A stretch of 60,539 bases of DNA. Origin: Saprospiraceae bacterium. GTDB lineage: Bacteria > Bacteroidota > Bacteroidia > Chitinophagales > Saprospiraceae. Positions 4,764 to 40,243 of this stretch are shown in pieces. The position numbers and the translations under genes are program-made. The stretch covers positions 1 through 60,539 of the forward strand of contig JAHDHU010000002.1 of the NCBI GenBank assembly GCA_020631135.1. The letters are read 5' to 3'. How positions within the stretch are numbered: position 1 is the first letter of the stretch; every line of letters begins with the position of its first letter. The notes beneath the pieces are model-generated. The model was not told the origin of the DNA. It saw only the letters and a list, made by a program, of their open reading frames with translations, and did not search any database.

Positions 4764-4786
4764 TCAAAGATTCTAACAGAATAATA

Positions 4787-4821: not shown

Positions 4822-4933
4822 GTCTGGCAACGACATATTTCTTTAAATATTGTTTTTGCTAACAGATTATTAACGATTTCCCCCATCTTTTCAGGTCGAT
4901 TCTTCGTATATTTATCAAACAAATGTTTTAATT

Positions 4934-5632
4934 ATGGTTAGAAAACTACTTAATCTAAGCTTATTACTCGTTATTTCATTGGGCTTAAATGCACAAGTGA
5001 TGACATCTAATCCTGCAGAACCTGCTGGCCAAACAGATGCCTGTGAAAAGGTTACAATACCTCTTACAATTAGAAATGTAAGTTCTAATGATTTGAATGC
5101 CTTATGGAAGGTCGAAAGAGTTGATATGGAAGAAGAATGGACATTAACTATTTGTGATGCTGTGACTTGCTATGCAGAAGGTAAAGAATTTATTGATGAA
5201 CCAGGTCAAGCAAATAACTTTTTGGCAGGTCAAGCAATTGATACATACAGTTTTAAGATAGATCCTAACGATATAGAAGGTGTGGGAGATTTCGATTTCG
5301 TTATGTTTAACGTGGATGATCCAAATGAGGAGTATATTAGAATCCCATTTGTAGTGACAGTGCAAAATTGTACTTCTGCTGTTCATGACATTAATGTTGT
5401 TAACAAAATCAACATTTACCCAAATCCAACTACGGATATGTTTAATGTTGCCAATAATGAGATCGTTGAATCTGTAGTAGTATATAACATAGTTGGAAAA
5501 GAAGTGAAGAGCTTTGGAAAAAATGTTAACGGAAATTATGACGTTTCTAATCTAAGTAATGGAATGTATCTTGTTAGAATGTTTGATGTCGATGGAGATA
5601 TGATTAAAGTTTCTAGATTAAGTAAGAAATAG
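4934..5632 (+). CDS. Small secreted protein with T9SS type A sorting domain
   Basis: A 232-residue protein with a signal peptide (residues 1-21, ending GLNAQ) and a C-terminal type A sorting domain from about residue 152 (NIYPNPTTDMFNV ... NGMYLVRMFDVDG). The roughly 130 residues between form a beta-rich domain with Cys pairs and repeated acidic loops. It resembles the single beta-sandwich modules often found in small Bacteroidota cargo proteins, but I do not recognise a named family. It is flanked on both sides by strong hairpin terminators, so it is transcribed alone. Cargo of the same export system as the gene upstream; the function of the central domain is unknown. Confidence 0.75.
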   Translation: MVRKLLNLSLLLVISLGLNAQVMTSNPAEPAGQTDACEKVTIPLTIRNVSSNDLNALWKVERVDMEEEWTLTICDAVTCYAEGKEFIDEPGQANNFLAGQAIDTYSFKIDPNDIEGVGDFDFVMFNVDDPNEEYIRIPFVVTVQNCTSAVHDINVVNKINIYPNPTTDMFNVANNEIVESVVVYNIVGKEVKSFGKNVNGNYDVSNLSNGMYLVRMFDVDGDMIKVSRLSKK

Positions 5633-5651
5633 TCTTATATACATAAGTAAT

Positions 5652-5687
5652 AAAAAAGGCGAATCAAATTTTTGATTCGCCTTTTTT
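5652..5687. terminator. Bidirectional terminator between convergent genes
   Basis: A perfect 10-bp stem (GGCGAATCAA at 5658-5667 with its complement at 5672-5681) has a 4-nt loop, an A-run before it and a T-run after it. It sits between the plus-strand T9SS gene (stop 5632) and minus-strand queD (stop 5707) and suits both. Confidence 0.9.
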
Positions 5688-5706
5688 GTTTTGGATCTTT
5701 TATAAA

Positions 5707-6117
5707 TTAATCGGCAGGATATTCCACACCGTTTCTAGCGGTTTCCCATATTCGAATTTTTATATCGATGTTGTCATCTATTCTTGCTCTTAACAATTCA
5801 TAAATTATATAAGCAAAATTTTCGGTGGTTGGATTCAATGATTTAAATTCTTCAGTATCGAGATTTAGATTTTTATGATCAAATCGATCCTCAATTTCTT
5901 CTTTAATTATTTCTTTTAGATCTTTCAAATCCATAAGATACCCTGTAATAGGGTTAATTTCTCCGGTTAACTTGACTTCTAAGTCATAATTATGTCCATG
6001 AAAGTTGGGACTATTACATAATCCGAATACTGTTTTATTTTTCTCATCTGACCATTCATTGATGTGCAAACGATGACAAGCATTAAAGTGGGCTTTCCTA
6101 ATTATTGATACTCTCAT
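5707..6117 (-). CDS. queD: 6-carboxy-5,6,7,8-tetrahydropterin synthase
   Basis: A 136-residue member of the 6-pyruvoyl-tetrahydropterin synthase/QueD family, close to the usual length. The zinc ligands appear as His15 (FNACHR), His40 and His42 (FHGHNY), the catalytic cysteine is Cys34 (FGLCNSPNFHGH), and the late glutamate is in IRIWETARNGVEY. In bacteria this enzyme turns dihydroneopterin triphosphate into 6-carboxytetrahydropterin, the first dedicated step of queuosine and 7-deazaguanine synthesis. No other queuosine gene is in the window, so the pathway assignment rests on family only. It is divergent from holB with about 78 bp between them and ends in a shared bidirectional terminator. 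Confidence 0.9.
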   Translation of the reverse strand: MRVSIIRKAHFNACHRLHINEWSDEKNKTVFGLCNSPNFHGHNYDLEVKLTGEINPITGYLMDLKDLKEIIKEEIEDRFDHKNLNLDTEEFKSLNPTTENFAYIIYELLRARIDDNIDIKIRIWETARNGVEYPAD

Positions 6118-6172
6118 ATTGATTTAAACAAACTACAAAGTCTAAGGTTCTATTTAAGGTGTTTTCTTTAAC

Positions 6173-6180
6173 TATCTTTG
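6173..6180 (+). promoter_or_regulatory. Putative Bacteroidota -7 promoter element (TATCTTTG) for holB-ricT-lpdA
   Basis: Exact match to the TAnnTTTG -7 consensus, 16 nt before the TTG start codon of holB. The expected transcription start leaves a leader of about 10 nt. No good -33 TTG lies at the usual distance. Confidence 0.5.
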
Positions 6181-6195
6181 ATACAAAGGTAAAAC

Positions 6196-7323
6196 TTGAA
6201 AAGCAGAGAGTCTATAATATCTGATATTCATAATCAAATAGAGTCGGAACGCATACCGCACGCCACTTTATTTATTGGAAAGATGGGGTACGGAACATTG
6301 GATGTTGCCTTAAATTTTGCGCAATCATTGCTTTGTAAAAACAAAGTTAATGGTGCCTATTGTGGTAATTGTAATTCCTGTCATAAAACAAGTAAGTCTA
6401 TTCACCCTGATTTGCACTTTGCTTTTCCAGTTATAAAGCACGAGAAAAAGAAAAGAGAGGATACCACTAGCAAAGATTTTTTAGCAGAATGGAGAGAAAT
6501 CTTGGCAGAATCTCGATATTTCGATCAAACGGATTGGGCAAACAAATTAAATGCAGAAAACAAAAAACTCAATATCAATACCACAGAATGTAATGAGATA
6601 ATAAAAAAACTCTCATTAAAGTCATTTGAAGGTGGAAAAAAAGTGCTTCTTATTTACCTCGCAGAGTACCTCGCTAAAGAAGGTAATCGTTTATTGAAAA
6701 TTATAGAAGAACCGCCTTCTGATACATACATAATCTTAGTTGCTGAAGATCAACAAAAGATGCTAAACACCATTTTGTCTAGATGTCAGATTATAAATAC
6801 TAGGCCTTTTACAGATGAAGAATTGTTGCTTTTATCTGAAGAAGGACAAATGGGTACTGCTTTCACAGAAGAAGGTCTGTTTATTGCCAATGGAGATTTA
6901 AACCGACTCATAAATCTGGGAAGCTCAGTGGAAGGCCAAGATCATTCTTCCCAAGTATTAAATTGGTTGCGTTATTGTTATGCCCTTAATAGTCAATCAC
7001 GACATTTGATAGACTGGATCGAACAGTTTGCAAAGCTGTCCAAAAATGCACAAAATAATTTTTTAGAATACTTTTTACACTTTTTAAGAGAGTATCAGTT
7101 GTACTTATTTACAAATCAGGAAAAACTAAGATTGAAAAAGTCCGAACTTGAGCTTGTCGAAAAGATGAAAAAGATATTAGATGCAGAAAAATTAGATAAA
7201 TTATCACAAATATGTAATACTTTGTATTACAATTTAGGTAGAAACGTAAATTCCAAAATTGAGATGATGAATGCAAGTATTGAAATTCATAATTTGCTGC
7301 ATCGAAAACTCGTTTTGTCTTAA
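6196..7323 (+). CDS. holB: DNA polymerase III delta' subunit (clamp-loader ATPase-fold), TTG start
   Basis: A 375-residue AAA+ clamp-loader subunit. The N-terminus fits the family (RIPHATLFIGKMG), but the Walker A lysine is missing (GKMGYGTL), as in non-hydrolysing delta' subunits. A four-cysteine zinc module (Cys47, Cys56, Cys59, Cys62) and the SRC sensor motif (ILSRCQIIN) are present. It loads the beta clamp together with DnaX and HolA. The start is read as TTG at 6196: an in-frame TAA lies at 6190 and the next ATG (Met30) would remove the conserved N-terminal strand. It heads a unit with ricT 17 bp downstream, a neighbourhood also seen in Firmicutes (holB-yaaT). Confidence 0.9.
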   Translation: MKSRESIISDIHNQIESERIPHATLFIGKMGYGTLDVALNFAQSLLCKNKVNGAYCGNCNSCHKTSKSIHPDLHFAFPVIKHEKKKREDTTSKDFLAEWREILAESRYFDQTDWANKLNAENKKLNINTTECNEIIKKLSLKSFEGGKKVLLIYLAEYLAKEGNRLLKIIEEPPSDTYIILVAEDQQKMLNTILSRCQIINTRPFTDEELLLLSEEGQMGTAFTEEGLFIANGDLNRLINLGSSVEGQDHSSQVLNWLRYCYALNSQSRHLIDWIEQFAKLSKNAQNNFLEYFLHFLREYQLYLFTNQEKLRLKKSELELVEKMKKILDAEKLDKLSQICNTLYYNLGRNVNSKIEMMNASIEIHNLLHRKLVLS

Positions 7324-11110: not shown

Positions 11111-13243
11111 ATGAAGCGATTATTTCTTCTTTCTACATTGCTGTTTCTATCAGTAATGTCTATTGCCCAACCTACCAATTCGAGTTGTGCAACGGCAATC
11201 GAAATTTTAGATCCGATTGATTATTGCTCCAGTTTTGGAGAGTTTAATAATTTCAATGCTGGTCCAGGTAATCCCGCAGTTGGCGCAGCGACTTGTTGGA
11301 ATAATTCGAGCAATGATGTTTGGTTTCGAGTCACCGCATTCGCGAATGCTTTAAATATTACAGTCTCAGGAAATGCCAATGGATCAATGGCGGGAGGTTC
11401 TTTAGTGCAGCCAGAAGTAGCTTTATATGAGGATGATGGATGTGTATCATTTAGTGAATTAAAATGTGATTCGGATGATACCAATGGAGGTGCTGCTAAC
11501 ATTTTTAGAGGTGGTTTAACGATCGGTCAATCTTATTTAATTCGTGTTGATTCTCGAGCTGGAGTTACTGGAACTTTTACCCTTTGTATTAAGAATTTTA
11601 ATCCGCCAGTTGAGCCAGGCCAAGATTGTATAACCAATGCTTTGCTTTGCGATAAATCTCCATTCATTGTTCAAGCCATTTCAGGAGGTGGTTCTAATAC
11701 TAATGAGTTTGACGGAATACCATGTGGATTTGATGAACAAGGTAATCCTGTAGGTTTGACAGAGCAACAAACAACATGGTTTTCTTGGACCTGTGATCAA
11801 GCAGGTAGTTTAAGTTTTATTTTGGATCCCATTATTCCAGGTGATGATATCGATTGGGCCTTATTCGAATTGCCAAATGGTTTGGGTGATTGTACGGTCA
11901 AGACACACTTGAGATGTGCATTCAATAGTCCTAATAATGCCAATGGTGGCACCTTGGATTGTGGAGACCTTACGGGAATGCAGGATTCTTCGAATGATAC
12001 CTACGAAGACTTTAATTGTGAATCCAATGAAGATGGTTTTGTCCAATCTATTAATATGACATCCGGCACATCATATTTGTTAGGCATAAATAATTTTACT
12101 GAGAGTGGAGTTGGTTTCGAAATAGAGTTTGGAGGATCAGGAACTTTTAGAGGACCCGATGCTGACTTTATGATCGATCCTTTGGAAGGCCTAAGATGTG
12201 ATACCTTTTTTACGGTTACGGACTTAACTACTTTTGATCCCAATCTCGGAAATATTGTATCATGGGAATGGAATTTTGGTGAAATGGCAAATCCTCCGAC
12301 TGCTTCTGGTCAAGGGCCATGGCAAGTGGAGTACAATGGCTTTGGGGATAAGTTTATCACACTAACTGTAGAAACTGATCAAGGATGTATTTTAACGGAG
12401 GTCTTGCCTCTATTTGCAGAACCTTGTTGTGATGACTTGACGGATATAGAGATTGATATAGTAGATTTACAAAACTTGGTTTGTGCAACTGTACCTGATG
12501 GTTCTGTAACCGTTCAAGGTGCCAATGGATCACCAGATTATGAATATGCAATCGATGGGGGAACATTCAACCCGAATCCATTTTTTGGAAATTTAGATGC
12601 TGGTTCATATCAAATAAATATTCAAGATATAAAAGGATGTACTGATTCTATTGATGTTGTGATTACCTCACCTCCACCGATAGTCGTTGACGCTGGACCG
12701 GATCAAACTGTTGAGTTATGTAGAGAATCTCAACTTGTTGGTTTATATAGTCCTATGAATGCTACAGACTCTATTGTGTGGAACGCACAAGATACTAGTG
12801 ACAATTTTTCATTGGAATGTCAAGATTGTTTAGATCCTATTGTTGTAGCTCCGGGAGAAACCACTTATATATTGACAGTTGTAGACGAAGTAGGGTGTTC
12901 CGCTTCGGATGAAGTCACCATTTTCGTTGATGCTGAATATTTGATTTATGGCCCAAATGCCTTTTCACCGAATGGTGATGGCTTACATGACAGATACACC
13001 ATTTATGGAGGTCCCGCTGCATTAATGGCTACTGAATTTTACATCTATGATCGATGGGGTGAATTGATATTTTTTAGAGAAGATATGCCCTTAAATGATG
13101 ACTTAGTCGGATGGGACGGAAGATTTAAAAATTCTGATTTGAGTAATCAGGTGATGACTTGGTATGCAAAGGTCTTGTTTTGTGATAATGAAGGCCCTGA
13201 CGATACCCAAAATTTCCACGGATCATTTACGATAGTAAGATAA
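11111..13243 (+). CDS. Secreted multidomain protein with gliding-type (T9SS type B) sorting domain
   Basis: A 710-residue exported protein. Signal peptide residues 1-19 (ends SIAQ). Two beta-sandwich domains rich in Cys and Asp occupy about 20-165 and 170-340, resembling pre-peptidase/C-type adhesive modules. A PKD-like domain (SWEWNFGE ... FITLTVETDQGC) lies near 378-430, an SprB-like repeat (ATVPDGSVTVQGANGSPDYEYAIDGG) near 455-520, and the type B sorting domain (PNAFSPNGDGLHDRY ... YDRWGELIF ... GWDGRF) in the last 95 residues. This predicts T9SS export and cell-surface display; an adhesive role is inferred. Its stop shares a base with the lptC start (TAATG), so it heads a five-gene overlapping chain. 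Confidence 0.85.
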   Translation: MKRLFLLSTLLFLSVMSIAQPTNSSCATAIEILDPIDYCSSFGEFNNFNAGPGNPAVGAATCWNNSSNDVWFRVTAFANALNITVSGNANGSMAGGSLVQPEVALYEDDGCVSFSELKCDSDDTNGGAANIFRGGLTIGQSYLIRVDSRAGVTGTFTLCIKNFNPPVEPGQDCITNALLCDKSPFIVQAISGGGSNTNEFDGIPCGFDEQGNPVGLTEQQTTWFSWTCDQAGSLSFILDPIIPGDDIDWALFELPNGLGDCTVKTHLRCAFNSPNNANGGTLDCGDLTGMQDSSNDTYEDFNCESNEDGFVQSINMTSGTSYLLGINNFTESGVGFEIEFGGSGTFRGPDADFMIDPLEGLRCDTFFTVTDLTTFDPNLGNIVSWEWNFGEMANPPTASGQGPWQVEYNGFGDKFITLTVETDQGCILTEVLPLFAEPCCDDLTDIEIDIVDLQNLVCATVPDGSVTVQGANGSPDYEYAIDGGTFNPNPFFGNLDAGSYQINIQDIKGCTDSIDVVITSPPPIVVDAGPDQTVELCRESQLVGLYSPMNATDSIVWNAQDTSDNFSLECQDCLDPIVVAPGETTYILTVVDEVGCSASDEVTIFVDAEYLIYGPNAFSPNGDGLHDRYTIYGGPAALMATEFYIYDRWGELIFFREDMPLNDDLVGWDGRFKNSDLSNQVMTWYAKVLFCDNEGPDDTQNFHGSFTIVR

Positions 13244-16115: not shown

Positions 16116-16235
16116 TGATTGATTTAGGACTTCTTCCTTTAATCAACTTACACACAAACCCTTATTGTCAGCCTAGCTTGTCATAGTACCTAATCATCGA
16201 TGCGTTGTGTCGATGAAAACTACAATTTGGTAACT

Positions 16236-19200
16236 ATGAAGACTCCAGGAAGAGAAGCGATCGGGCTTTTCCAGAAAACCACTCTTTGTGTTTGGGCAAT
16301 TATATTGTCTATACTTTTTGTTTCAGAATCATATGCTCACGGCACCCAGACAGCCTATTGTATCACAAATTCTGGAAAAATCCGTGTGTGGATAGAGCAT
16401 TGGCACGGAAATATTAGTCCGGGTAATGTTACAAATGCATTGGTTTCCATTAATGTCACAGATAATTCAACAGGCTTAACTACTAATTTTCAAAGTATTC
16501 CAGATGGTGTCGTTTGGGACACTACGATTGGCAATCTACCAGATTGTAAAGGATCCATGAATGTCCTTTCAACCTGTCCAGGTAGATCCAATGTGTATAA
16601 TGATTGGGTATATTGGGATTTTGTGCCTCCTTCTTGCTTTGTGAGTTTGACCATCGAAATTGTCGAAGTCATTGGTTCTCAATCATGGTATTTTGACGAA
16701 GCTTGTACAGCGTTATATCCTGTGAATTTTACAGATAGTTTTATCGATTGTGTTCCACCTCAAATTACTTGCCCAACTGATCAGATAGTGGAAGTAAACG
16801 CCACTGGTTGTGGCGCTAATGTAACAGGTGGATTTGAGCCTACAATACTATTTGACGATTGTACTCCGACACCGGATATTATTTTGGCATACACCGTAAC
16901 GGGTGCAACTACTGCATCTGGTAATGGTCCTGCAAATATTTTCTTTAATAAAGGGGTTTCAGTTGTCACTTATAGTGCAACAGATGCCGTACCATCAACT
17001 TCCACCTGTAGCTTTACAGTTACTGTTGAGGATAATAACGGTCCAAGTTTAACTTGTCCAAATACTTTAAATATAGAATGTAATCAAAGTGGAAAAGGTG
17101 CAATAATTGCCGATTGGTTAAATCAAGTCAGCGCCACTGATTTATGCGGTGTTTCTATGATTAGCAATAATTATGATCCTGATGGATTCGCCGGAGTTGA
17201 CCAATCTGCAAAGTTTAATTCTTATGGAAATAACTCTGCCCTGACTTTATATGGTAATATGGCATTCGCCAATGTTGATAAGTCTTTATTTTATAAGTCT
17301 ATGTTGGAATGTTCTGAATCTCTCGAATTTTCAATTCAAGAGATGAGCGGATCTAATCTTTTTGATTATTTGGTTAAACTCAGGGTTGAAAAGAATAAAA
17401 TTGAATTAGAAGATTATAATAATATATTATTTCTTGATTCTAAAGACAGAATAATTCCATTTTGGATCGAATCTCAAAACGAAGAATCCATAGACTTTTG
17501 GCTTAAGATTCCCGAAATTCTAGCAAGCGAGAAGTCCAAATTTTTCTTAAAATATGGCAATTGCCAAGGAATACAATTCAATTATGACAATTTGTTCAAT
17601 GATGAAATTACTCCCGCAACGGCTTCATTAGCACAAGCCAAACCTGTTGTCATTGGATATGGTATTTCTAATTTACCTTTTTTAAACGACGCTGTTCAAA
17701 ATGATGATGAAGGAACCATTGCAAATAAAATGATGGATTGTAATTGTACGGCTTCTCAAGGTTCGCAATCATTTGCCATTAATGCTATTCAGAATGCTGA
17801 AGACGATGTTAGTTTTTACCAATATGGTACACCTAATGGTGCTTCAGCCAATACTGGATTAGAAATGAATGATGCAGTTGTGTTATTTCTATATGAAAAT
17901 ATTTTAACTGGAGAAATAAGTCTCTTTATTCTAATTGATGCTGCTGGAGGTGGAAATGGAGGAAAAGGCAGTATAGATTTTTATTGTCTTCCTGCATCCG
18001 CAACATTGGATTTTTCAGATGATCCCGGAGAAATATCTGGTATCTTTCCAACTGTAACTGCTAATTGGGGTTGGGCAAATTGTTGTACAGATGGTGCCCT
18101 AATCGGGAATGTGGGTTGCAATTCGACATTCGACTTTTACCCAAGTTTCAGCTCAGGTATTAGTTCTATGAAATGGGTTTCTGGATCCTTGGCTAGTCCT
18201 GTTTTCACAAATTTTAATAATTTTTCTGATCCGGTTAGAATTCAATGCGGAAGCTCTAATCCAGTTTGCTGTCCCAATGCAAATACGGTTAATGTGACGG
18301 ATGCCACCTGTCCTGGTGATAATGATGGGTCTATTGATTTAATTGTGGATCCAAACGGGGCACCATACACTTATGCATGGTCTACTGGTGCAACCACCCA
18401 AGATGTAAATGGCTTAAGTAATGGAACATACACCGTCACAGTTACAGACACCAATGATTGTGAACAAGAAATACCCGTAGAAGTCGGAGTACAAAATACA
18501 CCTTCGCTTACTTGTGCTGCCAACCAAACAGTTATGACTGATTCAGATATGGTAAGTTTAGTTGCAGGTGACAATGTAATTTATGGAGTAGATTATAATT
18601 GTACTAATGACTACACTGTTACTTGTTCTGGATGTGGAACTTATAATTGTGATGATCAAGGTGAGCCCATTTCGATAACACTAACAGTAACTGACGAGCT
18701 AGGCAATACTGATCAGTGTAATATTCAAGTAACGATTCAAAATAATCCTCCTCAGTTAACATGTCCAGACGATTTAGATTTGGAATGTAACCAAAGTGGC
18801 AAAGATGCCGTTATTTCTGATTGGCTTTCGACGGCTAGCTCATCTTCGCCTGATTTAAACAATATTTCCAACGACTATAATCTTGATGGTTTTGTTTTTA
18901 TGGATGATATTTTCGAGACTAGTGATATCGTCTATCATAGTTCGGGTAAACAATCAATACAGACTTCACCTAGAGATGAATATTATAATCTCAGTTCATT
19001 CGCTTTTGCAGACTCTTCTCCTACTGGTTCGCAAACGGTGACATTCATTGCCACCGATAATTGTGGTAATACTTCTACTTGTACTGCCACGATCAATATT
19101 ATTGATACAACAGATCCAGTCATAAATTGCCCAAGCGATTTAACAATCGAATGCGGTAATCCGAATAATGATGCCATTATTACAAATTGGTTGGATAACG

Positions 19201-22200
19201 TGACAGCAAACGATGCTTGTGACCTCAATCCAATAATTACAAATAATTATGCAGCCAGCTTTGCTGGTGGATGTGATGGTCCAACAGGAAGTAGGCTCGT
19301 GCGGTTTACTGCAACTGATTGTGATGGAAATTCATCTACATGTACGGCAACAATAACAGTTGTTGATACAACTCCTCCTGAATTTTTAATGAAACCTCAG
19401 GATTTAACAGTAGGATGTATTAATACGGAAGGTAACACACCGGAATTAACTGCATGGCTTGCGGCTAATGGCGGTGGAATGGCGGTGGATGATTGTGATC
19501 CAACAGTAACTTGGACTCGTACTGCTGGTGCTACAGTAGATTTGTGTGGCTACACCTTTAGTAGAGAATATACCTTTACCATTACTGATAATTGTGGCAA
19601 TACTAACACAGCAGTAGCAACTTTTACAGTAGAAGATACGACTCCGCCGATTATGAACGCGCCGGTTGATAGATCGATAAACTGTAACCCTGGAAGCAAT
19701 GATGCTTCTCTTGCCATTTACTTAGCTAGTGCTTCGGCTTCAGATGCTTGTAGCCTTAACTCTGATATAGATATTAGTTATGTGCTCAACAGTCACGAGG
19801 ATTTATGTGGAGGAACCTTTATAGAAACTTACATTTTTACTGCAACAGATGAGTGTGGTAATACTGCAACTGATATATTTACTTTCCAGGTAACTGATAC
19901 CACTCCTCCCACTTGGGCATCGCCTCCACCAACACTAATCCTAGAGTGCAATGATCCAGATAATCCTACCTTAATCACTGAGTGGATAGATGCTTTTGAA
20001 GAATCCATTACTGATTTATGCGATGACGATCAAAATATTATCATAGAAAATAATTGGGATGGTAGCCTTGTCGAAGGCTGTAATCGCAACACAGTTATCG
20101 TTTGGACTGTAACTGACGGTTGCGGAAATTCAAGAACTTTGAGTAGAACCATTGCAGTTCGAGATAGAATAAATCCAACGTTTATTAATTGTCCAGATGA
20201 CTTTACGGTAAATGTAGATGTAGATATGTGTGGATCTGTGGTTACGTTTCCGACACCTGTTGCTTATGACCAATGTACGCCACAAGACGAATTGGTAATC
20301 ACTCAAATAAATGGCCCAGCAAGTGGATCAACTTTTCCTGTGGGTACAACCTACGTTAGATTTAGGGTTCAGGATGGTTGTTTGAGACAAGACCTTTGTG
20401 ATTTTTTCATAACAGTAGTTGATTCTGATACACCAGCTATTGCTTGCCCGTCAAACGTAGAGGCATGCGCTAGGCCGGGCTTATGTTTTTGGACTTCCGA
20501 TGCTTCTGTAAATCCAATTACCAATGATAATTGTGCTGGACTAACCATCCAGTTCGAATTGTCAGGTGCAACGACTCTTTCGAGGCGTAATGGAACAGCT
20601 TGGAATAGAAATTTTAATGTTGGGACAACCCAAGTATGTTATTGGCTGACTGATTCTGCTGGTAATGAAACGACTTGCTGCTTTGAGGTAATTGTTTCAG
20701 ATTGTGAAGACCCAATAATTAGTTGTCCTTCAGATATCACGAATGCCGTATGTGGTTCTACTCCGCCTGCCTCATTTATGGCAACCGCTACAGATAATTG
20801 CAGTTCCAATGGAGATATTGTGATAAGTTCTTCTCTTTATAATACAATTTCTGGTTGTGGTAACTCACAAACGGAAGTTTACTTATTTATAGCTACTGAT
20901 GAAGCCGGTAATACTTCTCAATGCTTTGCGAACTTCCAAACTATAGATCTTGTGGCACCTGTGATTTTAACCGCTGCATCAAATGGTAATTCTGATTGTG
21001 TCAGTGCAGATGTGGACTTTTTGGCTTGGTTAAATGATAATGGGGGAGCTGAGGCTTCAGATGCTTGCGGGGAATTAAATTGGTCCTACGAATTTGTAGG
21101 AGGAGCCATGACAGGATGTTCTGGCGCGCCTTCTGCCAATGTTGTTTTTACTGTGACAGATGAATGTGGAAACACCAGTACTACTCAAGCCACATTTGAA
21201 GTTGATGATAATACAAATCCAACAATTACTTGTCCATCTGATATTACCCTTGAATGTGGAGATGTTCTTAACCAATCTGTCATAGAATTGTGGTTGAATT
21301 CAGCGACCGGAGAGGACAATTGTTCTGATGTGGAAATTTCGAATAATTTTCCAGAAGGTACAGTATTGGAATGTGATGAATCAATAACAGTAATTTTTAC
21401 AGCTACTGATGATTGTGGTAATACTGCAACATGTAGTGCCTCCATAAGTATGGAAGATACTTTACCACCAACTTTCACTTTGCTTCCTCAAGATATTACC
21501 CTTGAATGTGGAGCAGGAGATTTAGCTGAAAGCATTACGCTTAATTTAAAAACCGTAAGTGGCGCGGCATATTCAGATCAATGTACTTCTAATTCTGATT
21601 TGACAGTGGATGTGGTGAATTTATCCGATAATGCTCAATGTGGAAATTCTAGTATTCAAGAATATCTGGTGACCATCACAGATGAATGTGATAATTCTGT
21701 ACAGGCTTCATGGTTTATAAATATTGATGACACAATAGATCCGGAATTGACTGTCCCTTCTAATTTGACACTTGAGTGCGATGGTTTAGGAAATCAGGCG
21801 GCAATTGATGCCTGGTTAGCTACGGCAAGTGCTACCGATGATTGTGGTTCAGCTTCGATCGAAAGAGAGTTATACAACTCAAGCAACACTTGTGGAAGTT
21901 TCGAAAATCTAACCTACTTGTTTACAGCAACTGATGAATGTGGAAATGAGTCTACCGGATTGGCAGATGTGATAATTAGTGATACCACTAGTCCAATAAT
22001 TTCATGTCCTCCTAATATTACCTTAAACTGCGGAGACAATAATAATTCTACACTTATTGTTAACTGGTTGGACCAAGTCTCGGCAACTGATAATTGCAGT
22101 AATCTTATTTTTTCAAATAATTATACGGGTTTATTACCTTCAAATTGTGGAGGAAGTATAGTGGTAACTTTTGTGGCAACTGATGATTGTGGCAACACTG

Positions 22201-25200
22201 CCAGTTGTAATTCGACCATTTTCATGGAAGATATGATCTCACCTGATTTTGAAAATTGTCCTGAAGATTTAACAATTAATGTTGACGTTAGTAATTGTGG
22301 TAGTAATCCAATATTCTCAACGCCAATAGCAGTTGACAATTGTGGAGTAACTGTTGCTCAAACTGCAGGACCTGCTTCCGGAACTGAATTTCCGGTAGGG
22401 ACTACTACGGTAGAATTTACTGCAACTGATGAATGTGGGAATACAACTACTTGTGAATTTGATATTACAGTAGTCGATTCTTCAGATCCACTAATCTTGT
22501 GTCCAAGTAATCTGTTTGATAGATGTATTACGGATAATTCGTGCTCTTTGATTATTGAGGATATTGCACCAACGCTAGGATTAGAAAATTGTCCAGGGTT
22601 TACTATAACATATGTGGTTACTGGGGCCACCACAGCAAGTGGAAATAATGATGCTTCCGGTACTTCATTTAATTTAGGTACGAGTACGGTTTGTTACACT
22701 TTGACAGATGCTGCTACCAATACTTCAACTTGTTGTTTCGACATTCAAGTATTAGATTGTGCGCCTCCTCAAATTAGCTGTCCGACAGATTTGATTGTTG
22801 CTTGTGATGGGACTGGTAATTCTACCGATTTAACGACTTGGCTGGCATCCGCATCTGCCAATGATGCTTGTAGCTCGCCGATCACATTTACAAACAAACC
22901 TTACAATACCATTAGCGGATGTGGAGATACAAATACCACAGTTTATGAATTTGTTGCCACAGATGCTGCAGGTAATTCTGCAGTTTGTTATGCATCTTTT
23001 ATGATAGAAGATGTAACTAATCCTGTTATAACAGAAGACGCAGAAGATTTAACAGTTGAATGTGATGGAGCTAACAATAGTAATGATATTCAATCTTGGT
23101 TAAATAATTTTGGAGGTACTCAAGCCAGTGATGGTTGTGGTGCAGTTAGTTATAGCCATGATTTTAGCGGTTCACTTTCAGATGCTTGTGCAGAAACCGG
23201 AAGTATTACAGTCATTTTTACAGCAACAGATGATTGTGGGAATACAGCAACGAGTTCTGCGGTCTTCACAATAGAAGATACCACCGCACCAGTTATTAAC
23301 TGTCCTAATTCTATCTCTTTAGAATGCGGAGATCCTGCTAATGAGGCGATCATAACCAATTGGCTTGCAACCGCGAGTGCTTCAGATGATTGTTCTGAAG
23401 TTGTTTTCACTAATAATTTTGAAACATCTTTTACTGCAGCTTGCGGAGATACGGGGGAGTATTCTGTAACATTTACGGCAACAGATGATTGTGGCAATAG
23501 TTCTACTTGCGAAAAACAAATAACAATTGTAGATCAAACCAATCCTTTGTTTGAAGCAAGCCCGATGGATCTAATTTTGGAATGTTCAAATACCAACAAT
23601 AGCAACCTGTATAATTCATGGTTAGACGCCAATGGTAATGGCGTGGCTTCTGATAATTGTGGCGAAATCACCTGGTCTGTTTCAGTACTTGACGCAATAC
23701 CGTCTTGTGGACAAACTGAAAGCATTCCACATTTGTGGACAATCACTGATGAATGTGGTAATTTTTCCACAGCCATTTCAAACGTAATAACGAATGACAA
23801 CAATTCTCCAGAAATTACTGCTCCCGACATCCTTGTTGTAGAATGTGATGGATTAGGAAATACGAGTCAATTAGATGATTGGTTGGAATCAGTAACGGGT
23901 TCAGATGATTGTGGTGAAGTTAGCTTAAGCTATACCTTAAACAATACAATATCAGCTTGTGGGGGTAGTTTAGTTCGAGAATATATTTTTACTGCTAGTG
24001 ATGCGTGCGGCAATGAGTCCACGGCTACCAGTAGCTTTACTATAGAGGATACTGCTGCTCCAATAATTACCTGTCCATCTGACTTAGAATTGGAATGTGG
24101 AAATATCGGAAATGATCAATTGATCAATGCATGGTTGCTCAGTACAACGTGGACAGATACATGTAGTGATGTGGAAATTACACACAATTATAACGGAACA
24201 TTACCTGCCGATTGTAATGGATCAATTTCGATAACATTCACGGCAACCGATGAATGTGGCAATACAGCAACTTGTGTTTCCAATATATTAATGGATGATA
24301 CTTTAGATCCAATATTTATAAACTGTCCCGAGGATTTAACGATCAATGTGGATGTGGATGAATGTGGCTCCAATCCTATTTTTTCTACGCCAGTGGCGGA
24401 GGATAATTGTCAAGTGAGTGTGACACAAACTGGAGGATTGGCGTCAGGCACGACTTTCCCAGTTGGTACGACTACCATAGAGTTCACCGCTGAAGACGCC
24501 TGTGGTAATACCGCAATTTGCCAATTTGATATCATAGTGATAGATTCGGACGTGCCTCAAGTATTTTGTCCTTCTACTACAGTGAGTCAATGTGTTGATT
24601 TCGGACAGTGTACTTGGACTAGTGATTCATCTATAGCACCCACAACAAGCTTTGAAAATTGTGATGATTATAATATAAGTTATACCATTTCAGGATCTAC
24701 TGTTTCGTCAGGTAACAATAGTGCAACTGGTGAGATTCTTAATTTGGGAGTTTCAACAGTTTGTTATACCATCGAGGATGTTAGTGGCAACAGCTCTAAT
24801 TGTTGTTTTGATGTTTTGGTGCAGGATTGTGAGGCTCCGATCTTAATTTGTCCTAATGATCTAGTTGTCGAATGTGCAAATAATAATGAAGTGCAAAAGA
24901 GTAACTGGTTAAACAGTTCAGTAGCGAGTGACAATTGTGATTTAAGTCCTTCCATAACATACGAATTGTTTAATTCTGTTAGTGCGTGTGGAGGTGGAGA
25001 AACTGAATATTATTTAATTACAGCTACTGATCTCTCAGGGAATATTTCTACATGTATACGTTCTTTTGAGGTAGAAGATAATATTGCACCCGTAATTAAT
25101 AGTACAGTAGCAGATATAACGGTTGAATGTGATGGTAATGGAAATATCGATCAATTAATTTCATGGCTTGACGCCAATGGGAATATTGCCAATTCATCAG

Positions 25201-28200
25201 TTACCGAGTTTTGTAGCGATTATGCTTGGTATAATAATTTTGATCAAGTTTCATTTCAAAATAATCCTTCATGCTCCGATGATATCGGTTTTTATGAAGT
25301 ACAATTTTGGGTCATAGATGAATGTGGAAACGAAAGTAATCGCATAACCAAGCGATTTAACATCGAAGATTCATCTGATCCAATTTTATCGGTTCCAGCT
25401 GATTTAACATTACAATGTGGGAATCCGCTAAATGATGCGATTTTAGCATCGTGGCTTGAAGATATCACCGCGACGGATCTTTGTGATCTTAATGTGTCGG
25501 TGGATATTGCTACCAATGTAATTGATCAATGCGGTGAAACAAATACCACATTATATACAATTACGGCAACTGATCACTGTGGAAACCAGATTCAAGAAAA
25601 CAGGCAAATTGTTATTATTGATAACGAAGCACCTGTAGTGACTATTCAGGCTTCGGATCTTTACTTAGAGTGTGCCGATGTAAGCAATGATGATTTAATC
25701 GATGCATGGGAATCGGCTTTTGGAAACGCAGTGGCAACGGACAATTGTAGTGATGAGGATTTAGAATGGAGTATCGAAAGTCAAATTGAAATTGAATCTT
25801 GTGGTTTGACGACAACTACCTCATATGTCTTTGAAGTTGAAGATAACTGTGGCAACGTATCAACAACCACTGCTTCTGTAATTACTCAGGATACTACAAA
25901 TCCAGAGCTTGTTCTTCCAGAAAATCAGTTAGAAGAATGTGGAAATATTGAGGTAAGTCTTACTCAATGGCAAAATGAAGCAACCGCCACAGATGAATGT
26001 GGTGATGTAGATATTGACGTAATATTGTGGGATACCCAAAGTGATTGTGGAGGCACGTTGACGGAGATTTATCTCTTTACTGCTACCGATGATTGTGGAA
26101 ATAGTACAACTGGTCTTGCCCACTATGAGCTTGAAGACACCGCTTCTCCTACTATTGCCTGCCCGTCTGATCTTTTATTGGAATGTGGAGATGATGACAA
26201 TGATCAAAAAATATTGGCATGGTTAAATGGTGCTATTGCGATAGATGAGAATAATTGTAGTAATGTAATTATTTCACATGATTATCCTGGTGGATTGCCT
26301 CAACCCATGGTTTGCAATGGAGGTACTGGTCTCGTAGTAACATTCACGGCAACGGATGAATGTGGCAATACAGCTACTTGTTCTGCGGTCATAAGAATGG
26401 ATGATATAGAAGTCCCTTACTTTGTTAATTGTCCATCTAATTTGATTGTTAATGTTGATGTCGATCAATGTTCAACAAATGTGGTTTATAGTACTCCAGT
26501 AGCATTAGATGATTGTTCAAATAATCTAACTATCAATCAAATAGCAGGTCCACTTAGTGGTACAGCTTTTCCATTAGGTTCTTCACAGATAACTTTTGAA
26601 GCAATAGATGCTTGTGGAAATAGGACAACTTGTTCTTTCCAAATTACCGTGATAGATACAGATGTTCCAAGTATTCTTTGTCCTACCAATGATGTCGTAA
26701 AATGTGCAGATTCAGATGCGTGCGTTTGGACGCCGGATACAGATGTGGACCCGATTTATAATGATAATTGTGATGGATTTAGCTTGTTGTATACAGTTAG
26801 TGGGGCTACGATTGCTAATTCATCAAACACGGGTGTAAATATAATTTCGGAGGATGGCGTAATCTTTAACCTCGGAACCAGTACTGTCTGTTATACTATA
26901 CTGGATGACTCTGGAAACAATGAAACATGTTGTTTTGATGTGATTGTTGAGGATTGTGAATCTCCTCAGATTACTTGTTCGGATCAAATAGATGTTGCTT
27001 GTGGCGAAGAAGATTTATCATCTTGGTTTGATGCCATTGCGGCAACAGCCACGGACAATTGCGATTCCAATGGTGATTTGGTGGTTGATACTTTATTATT
27101 GACGGATTTTAGTTCATGCGGAAATACTTTTGAAAGGGTTTATCTCTTCACAGTAACTGATCTAGCTGGTAATTCATCAACTTGTACAGCTACGTATGAA
27201 ACGGATGATAATATAGCTCCTCTAATAGTAACTGAAGCTCAAGATTTGACTCTACAATGTAATGGTGGAGAGCTAAGTATTACTTTACAAGCATGGTTAA
27301 ATAATGTTGGTGGTGCTACAGCTAGTGATGCATGTAGTTTGCCTTTGATTTGGTCAAATGACTTTAATGGGGATTTAACAGGAAGCTGTGGATCCAATGG
27401 GGCTGTTATGGTAACTTTTACCGTTAGTGATGATTGTGGAAATACTTCAACGACGCAAGCAATTTTTACAATTGAGGATACAGTTAATCCAGTTATTGTT
27501 TGTCCTGAGGATTTGATTTTGGAATGCGGAAATGATTTAAATGACGAAATCATTAATGCTTGGTTATCCCAAGCTTCGTCTGAAGATGATTGTCAAGGTA
27601 CCTTGACAGTTGTCAATGATTTTAGTATGGCAACACAAAGTGATGAGTGTGGATTGACAGGTGTTACGACGATTACTTTCACCGCCACTGATGCTTGTGG
27701 CAATAGTAGCTCTTGCCAACGGACTATCACTATTATAGATAATACAAGTCCTCAAATTACTACAGCACCCACCGATTTAATCTTGGTTTGTGCGGATGAT
27801 AATAACCCAGATCTCATAGAGAATTGGGCAAATGTCTTTGGTGGTTCTGCAGCGACAGATGATTGTAGTGACGAAGATTTAGTTTGGAGCATATTATCAA
27901 CCACAGAATTCGAAAGTTGTGGCAATACTGGTTCGACTTTATATGTCTTTGTTGTCGAGGATAATTGTGGCAATACTTCAACAACTTCTGCAAGTGTGGT
28001 AATTGTAGATAATGATGCACCAACACTTAATCTTCCTTTAGATCAACTTGAAGAATGTGGAAATGTCCAAGTTAGTTTGGAAGAGTGGAGATCGGAGGTT
28101 ACTGCTTCGGATGAATGTGGAGAAGTGACGACAAGTAGTATTCTTTGGAACTCTATCAGCGCTTGTGGAAGTACATATACTTTAGAATATTTATTTACGG

Positions 28201-31200
28201 CTACCGATGCTTGTGGAAACACTTCGACTGGAATTGCTACTTACTCTACAGAAGATACATCAAACCCAACAATCGCTTGTCCGGCGGATTTAATATTAGA
28301 TTGTGGAAATCCTAATAATGATCAACGAATAGCTTTTTGGTTAGAAAGTGCTTCAGCAACCGATGCATTTGGATGTAACTCAATTGATATTACCTATACA
28401 AATCCAGGTAGCTTGCCGGATATTGACTGTTCAAGTAACGCAGGCATCACAGTGACATTTACGGCAACTGATGCATGTGGTAATGAAGATCAATGCACCG
28501 CAATGATTATTGTTGAAGATAATATAGATCCCACATTCGTGAATTGTCCAGATGATTTAACGATCAATGTAGATGTTGATGCTTGTTCATCTAATCCTAT
28601 CTTTTCAACTCCGATTGCTGAAGACAATTGCTCAGTCAATGTAGAGCAAATTGCCAATGCTGATGGAGAAATATTGGAAAGTGGAACAGCTTTTCCTTTA
28701 GGAGATACTGAAGTGGTTTTCTTAGCCACGGATATTTGTGGAAATACTGCGATTTGTTCTTTTGTGATTACAGTTGAAGACAGTGATGTACCTATTGTAC
28801 TCTGTCCATCAAATACAATCGAGGTTTCAACTGATGATGGAGTTTGTAGCTGGACTTCAGATAGCCAGGTTTCGACTTCATTCTCCGTAGAAAATTGTCC
28901 TGATCAAACTTTAGAATACACGATCACAGGTGCAACAGTTGCTAGTGGAAATGATGATGCAGCGGGAGAAGTGTTTAATCTCGGATTGAGTACAGTTTGT
29001 TATACATTGACGGATGTCGCATTAAACCAATCTATGTGTTGTTTTGATGTTTTTGTCATTGACGAAGAACTGCCACAAATGACTTGTCCTGACAATGTAA
29101 TCCTCGAAACTAGCGATGTGATATTTGGTGACTGTCAGTCAGAATTGGACTGGGTTCATCCTACAGTTTCAGACAACTGTGATCTTACAGATGGAACTCT
29201 TGAATTATTTGTTCAAGCTCCAAATGGAACATTGACAGGACCATTAACGGCCCTGCCGGGCGCTGCTGTAAATATGTCTTTTGACTTAGGTCTAACCAAT
29301 TTGACCTATGTACTTACAGATGCCAACGGAAATGTCACTACTTGTGAATGGACAATAACTGTAGAGGATAACGAAATACCCGAAATCACTTGTCCTGAAG
29401 ATCTTGTTTTCGAGATCAATGATGATTGTCAATACACTGAAATAACTAACGATTTAGATGCGATTACAAATGATAATTGTGAAGTTGATTTTGTAATCCA
29501 CGACTACATATTCGCACCATCATCCAACACGCTTTCTGGAGCAAGCTTTAATGTAGGAAATACAACGGTGGTCTGGACTGTTTTTGATGAAAGCGGAAAC
29601 AGTAACACGTGTGAATTTGTAATTACTGTTGAGGATAATGAAAATCCTGAATTTGTAAACTGCCCGCAAGATACAGTTGTGGTAGGTACTGATGTAGACG
29701 AATGCAGCGCTTTTGTCAATTGGAGTGACCCAATCGCACAGGATGAATGTGGGGTAGCAGTTGAACAAACTTTAGGACCAAACAGTGGAGATGCTTTAGC
29801 TCCGGGTTTCTATGATATTAATTATGTGGCTACCGATAACAATGGAAATACGAGCTTGTGTGAATTTGTCATTCATGTTCAAGATACTCAGATGCCTATC
29901 GTGCTTTGTCCTTCTAATGATGTCGTAGTAGAAACAGACATTGCCGAGTGTACTTGGATCAGCCCGGAAGGATCTTTAACAGCTACTACAGCTTTAACAA
30001 ATTGTCCTTTTGTATTGACTTGGTCTGTGACCAATCCAGATGCATCAGTGACGGAGGGGTCGGAAGATGTTAGTGGATATACATTTGGACTAGGAACTTC
30101 AATAGTTTGCTACGATGTGATTGAAGAGTCAGATCCAGATGGCAATGGTTTAATGTCTGACCAATGTTGTTTTAATGTTATTGTTGAGGACAATGAAAAA
30201 CCTCAAGTAGTATGTCCTGAGGATGCTAGTATAAATACCAGCGCTGGAGGTACAGGTGACTGTCTTGCGAATTTTGCCTGGAATCATCCTTCTCCTGAAG
30301 ATAATTGTGGTATAGCTATGATATTTCTAACCATCAACGAAGCGAATGGTAATGTTGTTGGACCGATCGATGTGGTGGCAGGGAATAATATGATTCATGA
30401 TTTCCAAATTGGAATTTCAACAGTTGTATATGATGTTGAAGATAGCAATGGGAATACATCTAGTTGCTTATTTAGTATAGAGGTATCAGATGATGAAAAT
30501 CCTGAAGTCACTTGTGCTGACGATGTCACAGAAGTAGCAGATGATAATTGTCAATTTGTAGTAACTGATGATACATTGGATCCTGTATACAGTGATAATT
30601 GTGGTGTTGAGTTTAGCTATCACGATTATATATTCGCTCCGAATTCTTCGACTTTAGCTGGGGCTAAATTTGATTTTGGAATCACAGAAATCAACTGGAC
30701 GATTGTTGATGAAGCTGGAAACCAAAGTTCATGTTCACATACCGTAACTGTAATAGATCAATCTGCTCCAGTAATTACTAATTGTCCTGCGAATACAATA
30801 ACTCAGGATAGTGACGGAGGGGCATGTGAAGCTATCGTTAATTTCTCGAATATCTCAGCTGAAGATAATTGTGGAGGGTATATAGAATTGGAATATATGC
30901 TATCGGGTGCGATCGCTCAAGATTGGGCTGTTGGTCAAGCTTCTGGGCTTAGCTATCCAATAGGGATCACTACTGTTAGTTACCGTGCAACGGACCAATA
31001 TGGTAATGTGTCAGATCTTTGCGAATTTGATATCGATGTTGTCGACAATATGGCTCCCACTGCTGTTTGTCAGGATATTGAAATCGGTGTTGATTTCAAT
31101 TGTATGGCTTCGATAGTGCCAGAAGATATTGATTTCGGAAGCACAGATAATTGTGGTATTGCATCTCTGCTAATCAGTGAAAACGGGACTGATTTTTATT

Positions 31201-34200
31201 CAGAACTCGAATTTATGACAGAGGATTTATCAGATCCTTTCGTCGTGGTCACTTTACAAGTAACGGATGTTTATGGAAATACAGCTATTTGTCAGTCAAC
31301 TGTATTTATTGTTGACGAAATAGATCCGATGGTAATTTGTCAAGATGATATCATAGTTTCTACTGAACCAGGTGTTTGTTATGCGATGGTTCCAAATGTT
31401 ATACCACCAATAGATACAACGGATAACTGTATGGGTATTTCGAATGTGAGACAAGAGCCCTTGCCAGGATTGTTGTTTGGTTCAGAAGTTGGTGATTCGA
31501 TGTTTGTAACCGTAATCGTAGAGGACGAAGCAGGAAATGCGGACAGTTGTCAAGTAAAATTGATAATAGAAGACACAGAGCTTCCTCAATTCACCAATTG
31601 TCCAAGACCTCCTGTAGTCGTTGCCGCAGAAACTGATTTATGTTCCGCTGCTGCGAATTTTTCCGTTCCGACAGGAACTGACAATTGTGGTGCTGTAGAA
31701 ATTACAAGGATTGATGAACATGATTTAGATTCTGGAGATTGGTTCCCTATAGGTACAACCATACTGCAATATCAAATTGAAGATGAATCAGGAAACAAAG
31801 ATACCTGTCACATCAAAGTAATTGTCAATGACCTACAACCACCTTCTTTTGCATGCCCTGATGATGTTGTCCAGGTCAATGATCCTGGTTTCTGTGGTGC
31901 GGTAGTTAAGGATATTTCACCAGAAGAAATTATGGATAACTGCACAGATGAGTTGACTGTCACATTTGCAGTGGATTTGGAAGGAGAAAGAGACAACGGT
32001 GGTGTTATCGATGCATCAGGAGAATATTTTCAAGTAGGTAATAATTTGGTAACCTATTGTTTGGAAGATAGACCATCGCTATTAATTTCGGAGGTTACTC
32101 ATGAAATAGGAGCTGATATTGGCACAAATACAATCCCTAGTTACTTTGATCAAGGATTAGAAGAAGATTATATTGAAATCACCAATGTCGGTCCTTCGAC
32201 AGTGGATGTAAGTTGTTTGGTTATTGAAAAATTAGTTGGATCATCTGGTGGTATAGGATCTTTCACGGTACCATTTAATACACTCATGGCACCAGGGGAT
32301 GTTCTTGTATTACACTTGGGTTCAGGAGTTGATAGTCCAGCAGATCTTTATTTTAATGAAGACATTGGAGGAGCTAACTCAGGAGATCCAGCAGGTTATG
32401 CGATCATGTTTGGTGAATGTGTGATAGATGTTGTTGCGCTGAATGGATTTAATCCGATTGGTTCTGGAGACCTTGTCGTGATCGATGGCAATGATTGGTC
32501 AGGTGCGATCGATAATGATACCGGTACAGCAGGAGTATATCGACCATTCTCTTTTGATGGAAATAATAGCAACGATTGGGAAGTCGTTGATGAAGATCAT
32601 CCTGGTTCAATTGGTAAAGTAAATCAAGACTTTGATGTGTATCCAGATACTGGATTAACTAGCACACTTCAATCTAAATGTGGCACGAAGGTATGTTGTT
32701 CGTTTACAGTCGAAATCTTTGACGTTGAGCCACCAACAATCGAATGTCCAGATGATATATCCATCAATACCAGTGATAATGGGTTGGGTGATTGTTTAAG
32801 TTCTACCTCGTGGAAACATCCAGATATCGATGATAATTGTGCGACTAGTATATATTGTATGACCATTGTAGAACCAGATGGTACGGAAGAAGAAAATTGT
32901 TCGATCGCTCCAGGCGTCACTTTTATTGATGAATTTGAGGTAGGGGAGACTACAATAATTTACGAAGTCGAAGACGAGGCCGGAAATAAAACAACTTGTT
33001 CGTTTGTGATCACAGTTGTTGATGATGAAGATCCGCTGTTTACTTGTCCAGGTGATCTTTTTGTTCAGTTGGAACAAGGACAATGTTTTGCTGATATCTT
33101 TTCTGAGATAAATCTGTTCGAAACGGATAACTGTGGAGAAATGGTCATTCTCAGTACACCTGATATGGATGGTCAGTTTAACCCAGGTGAAAATGAAGTA
33201 ACCATAGTCATAACTGATGAAGCAGGAAATGAGAGAGCTTGTTCATTCATGATCACAGTCGAAGCCTATAATCCTGCAAGCACAGAAATGGCTTGTCAGG
33301 GTACAGTCAATGTTTCCTTAAATGGTGATTGTGAAGCGCTTATTACAGCTGATATGATATTGACCACGATGGATATTGGTTGTATCGATGATATCGAACT
33401 TTCTATTTCGGAGACACATGGTGGAGATCCTATTCCTGGTTCGCCATTGGTAACGAGTCAATATCTAAATCAAAGTCTGATTGTTACGCTCTTTAATCCT
33501 GATACTGGAAACTCTTGTTGGGGTACAATTTATATAGAGGACAAATTAAATCCTGTCATCGAGTGTCCTGATGATATGATTGTTTCCTGTGCAGAAGGTG
33601 TAGATCCAGCAAATATTGGTATGCCCGTGGTCACAAGTTGTGAAGAATCTGTCACCATGGTTTTTGCGGATGAAATCATTGATAATGGATTGTGTGGAGT
33701 TCCTCGTGCGATACATACACGAACTTGGATCGTTACAGATGAGTCAGGAAATACAAGTACATGTTCACACACAATCACCGTTGAGCGTTTGGAGGCAAGT
33801 GCGATTACTTATCCTCAAAATTATGATGATGTCGACAATCCCTCGTTTGATTGTGATGCAGTGGCAGATGATCCGTTGTTGATTCATCCAAATAATACAG
33901 GTCGACCAACAATCAATGGGTCAGATGTTTTAGATGCCGAATACTGTCCGCTTAGTATAAACGTGATAGATGAGATTTTTGATCTCTGTGATGGAAGTTA
34001 TGATATATTAAGAACATGGAGGGTTTACGATCCGTGTAAGCCAGTAGATAAAACTGGACCAGATCCAAACCCGGTTCATAGTATCCAAGTAATTAAAGTG
34101 CGTGATATGACAGCACCTGTTGTTAGTTGCCCTGGAGATATGACGGTAAGTGTAGGGGCTAGTTGTGTAGCGGAAATTGACTTTCCTGCTGCAACCATTG

Positions 34201-39788: not shown

Positions 39789-39865
39789 TTATGTATTTGG
39801 AACTATTCAACTTATTACTTATTAACAAAATCCCAAATCTCAAATCCCACTATCAGATCTAATTT

Positions 39866-39904
39866 CTAAAAATCTAAAAATCTAAAAATCTAAAAATCTA
39901 AAAT
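39866..39904. repeat. Tandem 8-bp repeat (CTAAAAAT x4 plus a 7-bp partial)
   Basis: Four exact copies at 39866-39897 and a shortened fifth. The array ends directly at the stop codon of the TfoX-like gene (39905). Confidence 0.9.
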
Positions 39905-40243
39905 CTATTTCTTCTTTCCTTTCTTTTTCGCCACTGCTAAATCGTAAGATTTTTGAGCCCACTCCGTTAAAGACTTTTGATTTTCTATAATTTCAATTGG
40001 TACTTCGTAATACGGCATTTTCATTTTTTTGCCGGGTACTTGCCAAGCTTCCATTCCGTACTTTTCATAATCCGCGCGATTAGTATCATCTACTTTAAGT
40101 CTGAATACATTTCCCATCACTCCTCCAAAACAAATTCCATCTTTAAAGATTCCGATGCTTCCAAACATTTTCTTAAACTCACATTCACCGAAAGGTGCCA
40201 TCACTTCTTTGACAAATTCGATGTACTCTTCAGTGTTTTTCAT
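39905..40243 (-). CDS. TfoX/Sxy N-terminal domain protein
   Basis: A 112-residue single-domain protein. The TfoX N-terminal pattern is present: KKMFGSIGIFKDGICFGGVMGNVFRLKVDD, then YEKYGMEAWQVPGKKMKMPYYEVP, and a Lys-rich tail. In gammaproteobacteria TfoX/Sxy activates competence genes, but that needs a C-terminal domain missing here; single-domain relatives are common in Bacteroidota and their role is unknown. Its start overlaps the stop of the upstream sialidase-like gene by 4 bp on the same strand. Confidence 0.8.
   Translation of the reverse strand: MKNTEEYIEFVKEVMAPFGECEFKKMFGSIGIFKDGICFGGVMGNVFRLKVDDTNRADYEKYGMEAWQVPGKKMKMPYYEVPIEIIENQKSLTEWAQKSYDLAVAKKKGKKK

Follow-up and report, generated by a model that had tools for sequence, protein, structure and literature searches.

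The DNA studied here was a window of 60,539 nucleotides from a Saprospiraceae bacterium (assembly GCA_020631135.1, contig JAHDHU010000002.1), and the subject is a giant open reading frame (ORF) in it, which encodes 6950 amino acids without interruption (Table 1). The HYR family (PF02494) was matched at 276 and 383.7 bits by two overlapping halves of the protein, with a Pfam cut-off of 21.7. The Pfam scan showed HYR domains along the protein, together with SprB and DUF2341 matches and a tail of the type IX secretion system (T9SS). Pfam's own T9SS sorting-domain model gave 22.9 bits, under its cut-off of 27; the corresponding NCBIfam model was above its own (Table 1). Lamin-tail and dockerin matches were both below the Pfam cut-off. 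The N-terminus was hydrophobic, and residue 13 (16236) was a possible alternative start upstream of a signal-peptide-like stretch, both judged by eye. In the array that follows the N-terminal head, eight types of HYR-like domain, A to H, recurred in a fixed order.

The order along the array was E-F-G-H, four A-H units, and then A-B, as an earlier note on this DNA had claimed; domain splitting and identity lags both gave it. The array extended over 19104–29060, against 19116–29066 in the note, and the five A domains (A1–A5) started 10–15 nt upstream of the note's values. The A starts were 2067, 2067, 2106, and 2115 nt apart (689, 689, 702, and 705 residues), in agreement with a claimed period of about 2.07–2.12 kb. 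The strongest offsets in an ungapped self-comparison of the protein were 689, 706, 1412, 690, and 1402 residues, and the diagonals expected near 690–705 residues were thus present (689, 690, and 706).

The domains were split at their starts and compared all against all (38 domains, E0 to B5; B8 was excluded from the identity matrix and the trees). Same-type pairs had an average identity of 44.8% (72 pairs), different-type pairs 33.4% (631 pairs), and neighbours 34.3% (37 pairs), so that same-type domains were more alike than neighbours, as had been proposed. None of 20,000 label shuffles reached the observed difference between same-type and different-type pairs. Mean identity at lags 8, 16, 24, and 32 was 45.6, 44.8, 44.3, and 41.8%, respectively, and at the remaining lags from 1 to 31 it was 29.9–35.6%. 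Similarity peaked at the unit length and not at lag 1, which is characteristic of a super-repeat. The best match was of the same type for 36 of the 38 domains; E1 was closest to H2, and F1 to G0. The best block pair varied with the type (A2-A3, 72%; F3-F4, 59%; G3-G4, 57%; B3-B5, 57%; D2-D4, 48%). Since different types favoured different block pairs, the window units are probably mosaics.

The 38-domain tree (90 columns) gave well-supported clades for types A (99/95) and B (100/99), and C (89/79) and D (72/86) were also recovered. Clustering by position along the chain, named beforehand as the refuting pattern, was rejected for block 2, the only block tested (p 6e-7). An origin of the unit from four domains (A-D copied into E-H) was considered and found unsupported by a quick tree of 80 A-H domains and five X or Y domains, types from further downstream. 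In that tree A and B joined X and Y and were separate from C-H; C stood beside G, H stood with three of the ten E domains, and many forks were open.

The recurrence of the unit in other genomes was investigated. When 100 relatives were searched with unit 2, full-length matches turned up in other genera. Five units of a genome from a different genus (G035) matched window unit 2 at 47–54%, compared with 44–46% for the window's own other units. Type profiles built solely from window domains were applied to 18 stretches (relatives and the window's own genome) and to 69 loci from named records, which were divided by eye from their type strings into 32 superrepeat loci and 37 other HYR loci. The superrepeat loci came from 22 assemblies, all Saprospiraceae metagenome-assembled genomes (MAGs). 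Among the loci, L061, L068, L072, L078, L081, L082, L088, L106, and L113 are contigs from G035, G053, G002, G022, and G003. The other loci were not a purely foreign control, as 11 of the 37 were labelled Saprospiraceae and one Saprospirales.

With these profiles, the exact string ABCDEFGH was read 51 times, in 20 of the 32 superrepeat loci and 16 of the 22 assemblies, each contig stretch being counted once, although one contig carries both L059 and L111, which overlap. It was not read in the 37 other HYR loci, and 2000 shuffles gave an expected number of 0.0005 on average. Adjacent pairs stepping to the next letter made up 817 of 1044 in the superrepeat loci versus 24 of 583 in the others. At E ≤ 1e-100, a 39-unit profile matched 26 of 248 family genomes, the window genome among them, and these represented 16 of 112 genera. 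A homogeneous long HYR array that includes 34 D-type domains in a row was seen in one Saprospiraceae MAG (L087), whose assembly also contains a locus with A-H-like stretches (L083).

Recent copies were sought as high-identity internal repeats. A repeat was classed as high-identity if its segment scored 80 or more and at least one 100-nt window contained 88 matches or more. For the superrepeat loci (frames of at least eight domains) the lag was the difference in domain index; for the other loci (at least five domains) it was the offset divided by the median spacing. The superrepeat loci contained 39 segments (79–99.8% identity; 16 of the 32 loci), which are not independent, 19 of them coming from L064 and L073; 38 of the 39 lay at a lag of 8, 16, 24, or 32 domains. 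At 95% identity or more, 15 of 16 segments were at multiples of eight domains. In L078, a 2174-bp copy of 99.8% identity had an offset of 2154 nt, exactly eight domains. It began where one C domain starts and ended shortly inside the C domain eight further along, exceeding the unit by only 20 bp, as expected if the crossover took place at the same B/C boundary. L064 (4952–14219) had a 5053-bp copy of 99.7% identity sixteen domains apart, and L061 a 3058-bp copy of 96.2% identity at lag eight, cut by the contig end. In L064, units 1 and 3 (L064_1 and L064_3) were identical.

In the window, whole-unit duplication followed by divergence, as the earlier note had it, is deduced from divergence; in relatives it was directly seen, and the copies in L078 and L064 support it. 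The qualification is that the copied block need not begin at A; in L078 it runs from C to B. In-register stretches shorter than one unit were also found (L069, 541 bp at 98.9%; L105, 1457 bp at 98.8%), and these were probably produced by gene conversion, or else by partial replacement. The L069 stretch suggests some homogenisation besides unit duplication. Stretches in L068 and L082 were withdrawn as gene-conversion patches, as both run into a contig end. Among the 37 other HYR loci, 27 had high-identity repeats. The best internal repeat was about five domains apart in L099, L102, and L119 (Mangrovimonas) and in L104 (Hyunsoonleella).

The age of the units was assessed by unit trees. Units passing length and gap rules were used, 81 in a quick tree (55 of them exact ABCDEFGH) and 28 of these in a tested tree. 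In a tree with G035, WIN_1 (window unit 1) grouped with G035_1 (100/100) and WIN_2 with G035_2 (95/95). In the 28-unit tree, all six first units of six proteins formed one clade (98/97), and first and second units together formed a clade (100/99). The four window units were in four separate places, and a single clade for them was rejected, with a log-likelihood 232.8 lower and p 2e-51. The quick tree agreed on the first units, and in it the last units of L062, L067, L070, and L072 grouped. Judging from these trees, the first-unit clade and the rejection of one window clade show that the units were duplicated before at least two Saprospiraceae genera diverged. The three neighbouring window unit pairs had 51–55% DNA identity, and their synonymous sites were almost saturated; no exact direct repeat longer than 22 bp was found in the window array. 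The window's own units are therefore old.

These results are most probably explained by a T9SS-exported HYR stalk whose growth, mostly in whole units, comes from recombination of domains with their same-type counterparts in adjacent units. The protein would be a very long Ig-like stalk with an N-terminal head, and its eight-domain unit would have arisen before at least two Saprospiraceae genera separated. After the eight types had diverged, DNA similarity would have sufficed for recombination chiefly where domains of one type in adjacent units were paired, so that length would change mostly by whole units. Unequal exchange would add or remove whole units and preserve the A-H order, and gene conversion would probably account for short in-register stretches of high identity.

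Several observations weigh against this explanation. In the unit trees, second units alone were not supported as a clade (52/14, 28 units); in the 81-unit tree they fell, at 84, into a group of eight rows that also included L060_1 and two L063 units. The first full unit of L072, from a same-genus genome (G002), grouped with the third of L062, which means that units were lost or that the gene is a paralogue. Of the eight type clades predicted by the earlier note, E, F, G, and H were not recovered in window-only domain trees, although forcing each to be monophyletic was not rejected (approximately unbiased test, p 0.33–0.52), and the shortness of the domains limits the power of this test. Four-domain steps occurred in the strings of L062, L067, and L079 (three assemblies), for which the similarity of types E and H may be responsible. 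These steps consisted of EFGH-like domains, and of ABC with an E- or H-like domain, inside eight-domain arrays. Of the 81 units in the larger tree, 26 were not read as exact ABCDEFGH, mostly through E/H and C/G interchanges. One repeat in L083, whose array is interrupted, was not clearly a multiple of eight, and 8 of the 39 repeat segments reached the limit of the sequence searched (L061, L068, L073, L082, and L085). The comparison genomes were almost all MAGs, in which recent copies may be mis-assembled. The array of a same-genus genome (G001) was cut by the contig end, and copy numbers are lower bounds.

One alternative concerns the meaning of the order. The eight-domain order may be functionless, a neutral by-product of recombination that chiefly moves whole units, and the chance of this is only slightly below even. 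Recombination between same-type domains itself predicts that the order is kept without selection on it; moreover, the four-domain rearrangements in L062, L067, and L079 and the variable copy number fit a neutral order. Against it, the amino-acid sequence is under purifying selection, with dN/dS of 0.04–0.46 for copies inside relatives' proteins (15 pairs, own NG86 script), and each type retains its particular cysteines from assembly to assembly, but neither fact establishes that the order is selected.

It is very unlikely that the units expanded separately in each lineage, or that concerted evolution homogenised the units of one protein, as the origin of the window array. Lineage-specific expansions were clear in relatives (L064_1-4, L061_3-5, L073_1-4, and L078_2-3; those of L061 and L078 appeared in the tree with G035 as well), and this holds for some middle units there as a second process. 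For the window it is refuted by the four separate positions of its units, the rejection of one clade, and the grouping of first units across six proteins. Simple tandem growth, one domain per step with the apparent types as local drift, is extremely improbable. Such growth is seen elsewhere: 24 of the 27 control HYR loci with high-identity repeats had some at one domain, among other lags, and many type strings of the other HYR loci were runs (e.g., DDDDDD and AAAAADDDD). In the window it is refuted by the lag profile, whose peaks were confined to 8, 16, 24, and 32, so that the array is a nested repeat, as the earlier note had concluded, and the rejected clustering of block 2 points the same way. 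One-domain repeats of high identity mark a simple tandem HYR array; among the repeats listed for superrepeat loci none was at lag 1–7, with L083 ambiguous. For the window, an assembly artefact, a chimeric or wrongly repeated contig, has a negligible probability even though the window assembly is incomplete (73% complete, 105 contigs) and several relatives' contigs end inside the array, since neighbouring window units differ at nearly half their bases, one uninterrupted frame spans the units, and exact ABCDEFGH occurs in 16 other assemblies.

The HYR unit was further characterized by structure prediction and cysteine patterns. Unit 2 was predicted to be rich in strands over its whole length; each of types C to H had a helix, and A and B lacked one. 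The model's mean predicted local distance difference test (pLDDT) score was 86.6, and the predicted template modelling (pTM) score was 0.40, so the relative domain orientation is uncertain. Cysteine sets were type-specific and kept across assemblies. Among 120 distinct B-type domains, the cysteine at column 18 and that at the start of the next domain were both present in 105, both absent in 15, and discordant in none, while columns 99 and 122 both carried a cysteine in 42 domains and neither did in 78; these counts are not independent evidence, given the relatedness of the sequences and the presence of N-terminal B-like domains among the 15. The pattern suggests two disulfides, one of which would link B to its linker. 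An A-B inter-domain disulfide, proposed from parity counts, was dropped, because B becomes even when counted together with the following domain's first cysteine.

In 125 of the 130 distinct copies of domain A the count of mapped cysteines was odd, and domain C was left with one odd cysteine after its first cysteine was assigned to domain B. This parity was observed in the sequences. As a conjecture, and an unlikely one, the eight-domain unit might be the register module of an extracellular cable, in which the odd cysteines of A and C would cross-link neighbouring chains once per unit. If so, increments of eight domains would determine how long the fibres are and how they are spaced, which would make the cable a bacterial equivalent of the periodic scaffold of titin.

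The function was considered by comparison with known systems. The T9SS sorting domain, the hydrophobic N-terminus, the conserved head, and the dozens of Ig-like domains fit an exported, presumably surface-exposed stalk that carries a head and may serve as an adhesin or a matrix fibre. Head orthologues were found in seven other loci at 49–54% identity. The predicted head structure was poor (mean pLDDT 63), and reading its fold was abandoned because of the low model quality. Among solved chains, the unit profile matched only SraP (serine-rich adhesin for platelets; 4m03, E 6.5e-8; 4m00, E 7.5e-8). The match to the SraP binding region spans 72 and 126 of 695 profile positions and implies no eight-domain unit; it fits an adhesin stalk and is no proof of one. 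From the parts of the sources consulted, SiiE, MpAFP, and a Mobiluncus adhesin also have tandem Ig-like domains over thousands of residues. However, SiiE is a type I secretion system substrate, whereas the window protein has a T9SS sorting domain, and region II of MpAFP is described as having roughly 120 identical repeat copies, unlike the ordered unlike domains found here.

The grappling hook of Aureispira (protein GhpA) is formed by a T9SS-secreted protein, according to the part of the report consulted (PMC11205867). GhpA resembles the window protein in that its host, Aureispira, is also a Saprospiraceae genus and in its secretion by T9SS. Foldseek placed the GhpA neck at rank 6 for the unit and rank 1 for the head. 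The match between unit and neck had an E of 7e-12, yet a TM-score of about 0.2 or less, and cadherins scored alike; on these models, the fold matches to the GhpA neck and cadherins appear generic. Membership with GhpA was rejected for lack of a sequence match to GhpA chains in the PDB: they were absent from the hits of residues 1–1321 and 4107–6950 at E ≤ 5 and of the unit profile at E ≤ 0.01.

Beyond A5-B5, a continuation overlooked in the earlier note was found. New types X and Y follow, and A-B-X-Y is a second, four-domain unit (28518–30755 and 31572–33266). It occurs twice in tandem and then again past A7 and two divergent domains. Y8 only weakly resembles Y5 and was not grouped with Y5-Y6 in the tree. 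The order ABXYABXY was also found in G001 (locus L052), whose contig ends there. Domain B8 (31830–32720) has 297 residues, with a lamin-tail-like stretch below the Pfam cut-off between two B-like parts.

Table 1. Parts of the giant ORF in the window.
Feature	Coordinates	Strand	Remarks
Giant ORF	16200..37052	+	6950 aa, chiefly Ig-like domains of HYR type
N-terminal head	17226..18737	+	Contains DUF2341 and SprB matches; HYR-like flanks on either side
Half unit E0-F0-G0-H0	19104..20162	+	
Unit 1, A1-H1	20163..22229	+	Groups with first units of five other proteins
Unit 2, A2-H2	22230..24296	+	
Unit 3, A3-H3	24297..26402	+	
Unit 4, A4-H4	26403..28517	+	
A5-B5	28518..29060	+	Eight-domain register ends
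X5-Y5	29061..29633	+	Completes first A-B-X-Y unit
A6-B6-X6-Y6	29634..30755	+	Second A-B-X-Y unit; order also in L052 of same-genus genome G001
A7, Z1, Z2	30756..31571	+	Z1 and Z2 are divergent HYR-like domains
A8, B8, X8, Y8	31572..33266	+	Third, decorated A-B-X-Y
Dockerin-like stretch	36024..36167	+	Below Pfam cut-off
T9SS type A sorting domain	36816..37040	+	NCBIfam TIGR04183, 31.6 bits, cut-off 23

Two further T9SS-type proteins are encoded near the giant ORF, at 2835–4763 and 11111–13243; one has an Omp28 domain and a Por_Secre_tail, and the other PKD-like matches and a CHU_C domain. A short tandem repeat of 5.5 copies (unit TCTAAAAA) lies at 39865–39907.

Super-repeats are already known from titin and nebulin, and the window protein is a bacterial HYR variant. 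The titin report, in the part consulted (PMC10665226), describes A-band super-repeats in which Ig and FnIII domain types stand in a fixed order with position-conserved residues. Both are giant proteins with distinguishable Ig-like types in a fixed order and a duplicated super-repeat; unlike titin, the window protein is bacterial, consists of HYR domains, carries a T9SS export signal and a unit of eight, and has no known filament partner or ruler role. Nebulin repeats, according to excerpts of PMC1553488, grow several domains at a time, mainly seven, as found by lag analysis. The multi-domain expansion step and the comparable lag analysis are shared; the difference is a bacterial HYR array whose units were traced to counterparts across genera. 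Other HYR arrays (Flavobacteriales and Saprospiraceae) belong to the same domain family but grow differently, with one-domain repeats in the loci counted above and five-domain repeats in some. In the literature searched, with few subscription journals, no paper held both whole words 'Saprospiraceae' and 'HYR', and none of the matches listed, by title and abstract start, describes such a unit. What this case adds is the combination of single-unit counterparts across genera with fresh copies at exact unit multiples. This provides a bacterial system for following super-repeat growth, with HYR arrays that grow by one domain as a natural contrast. Why domain arrays duplicate in multi-domain units thereby becomes testable by comparison.

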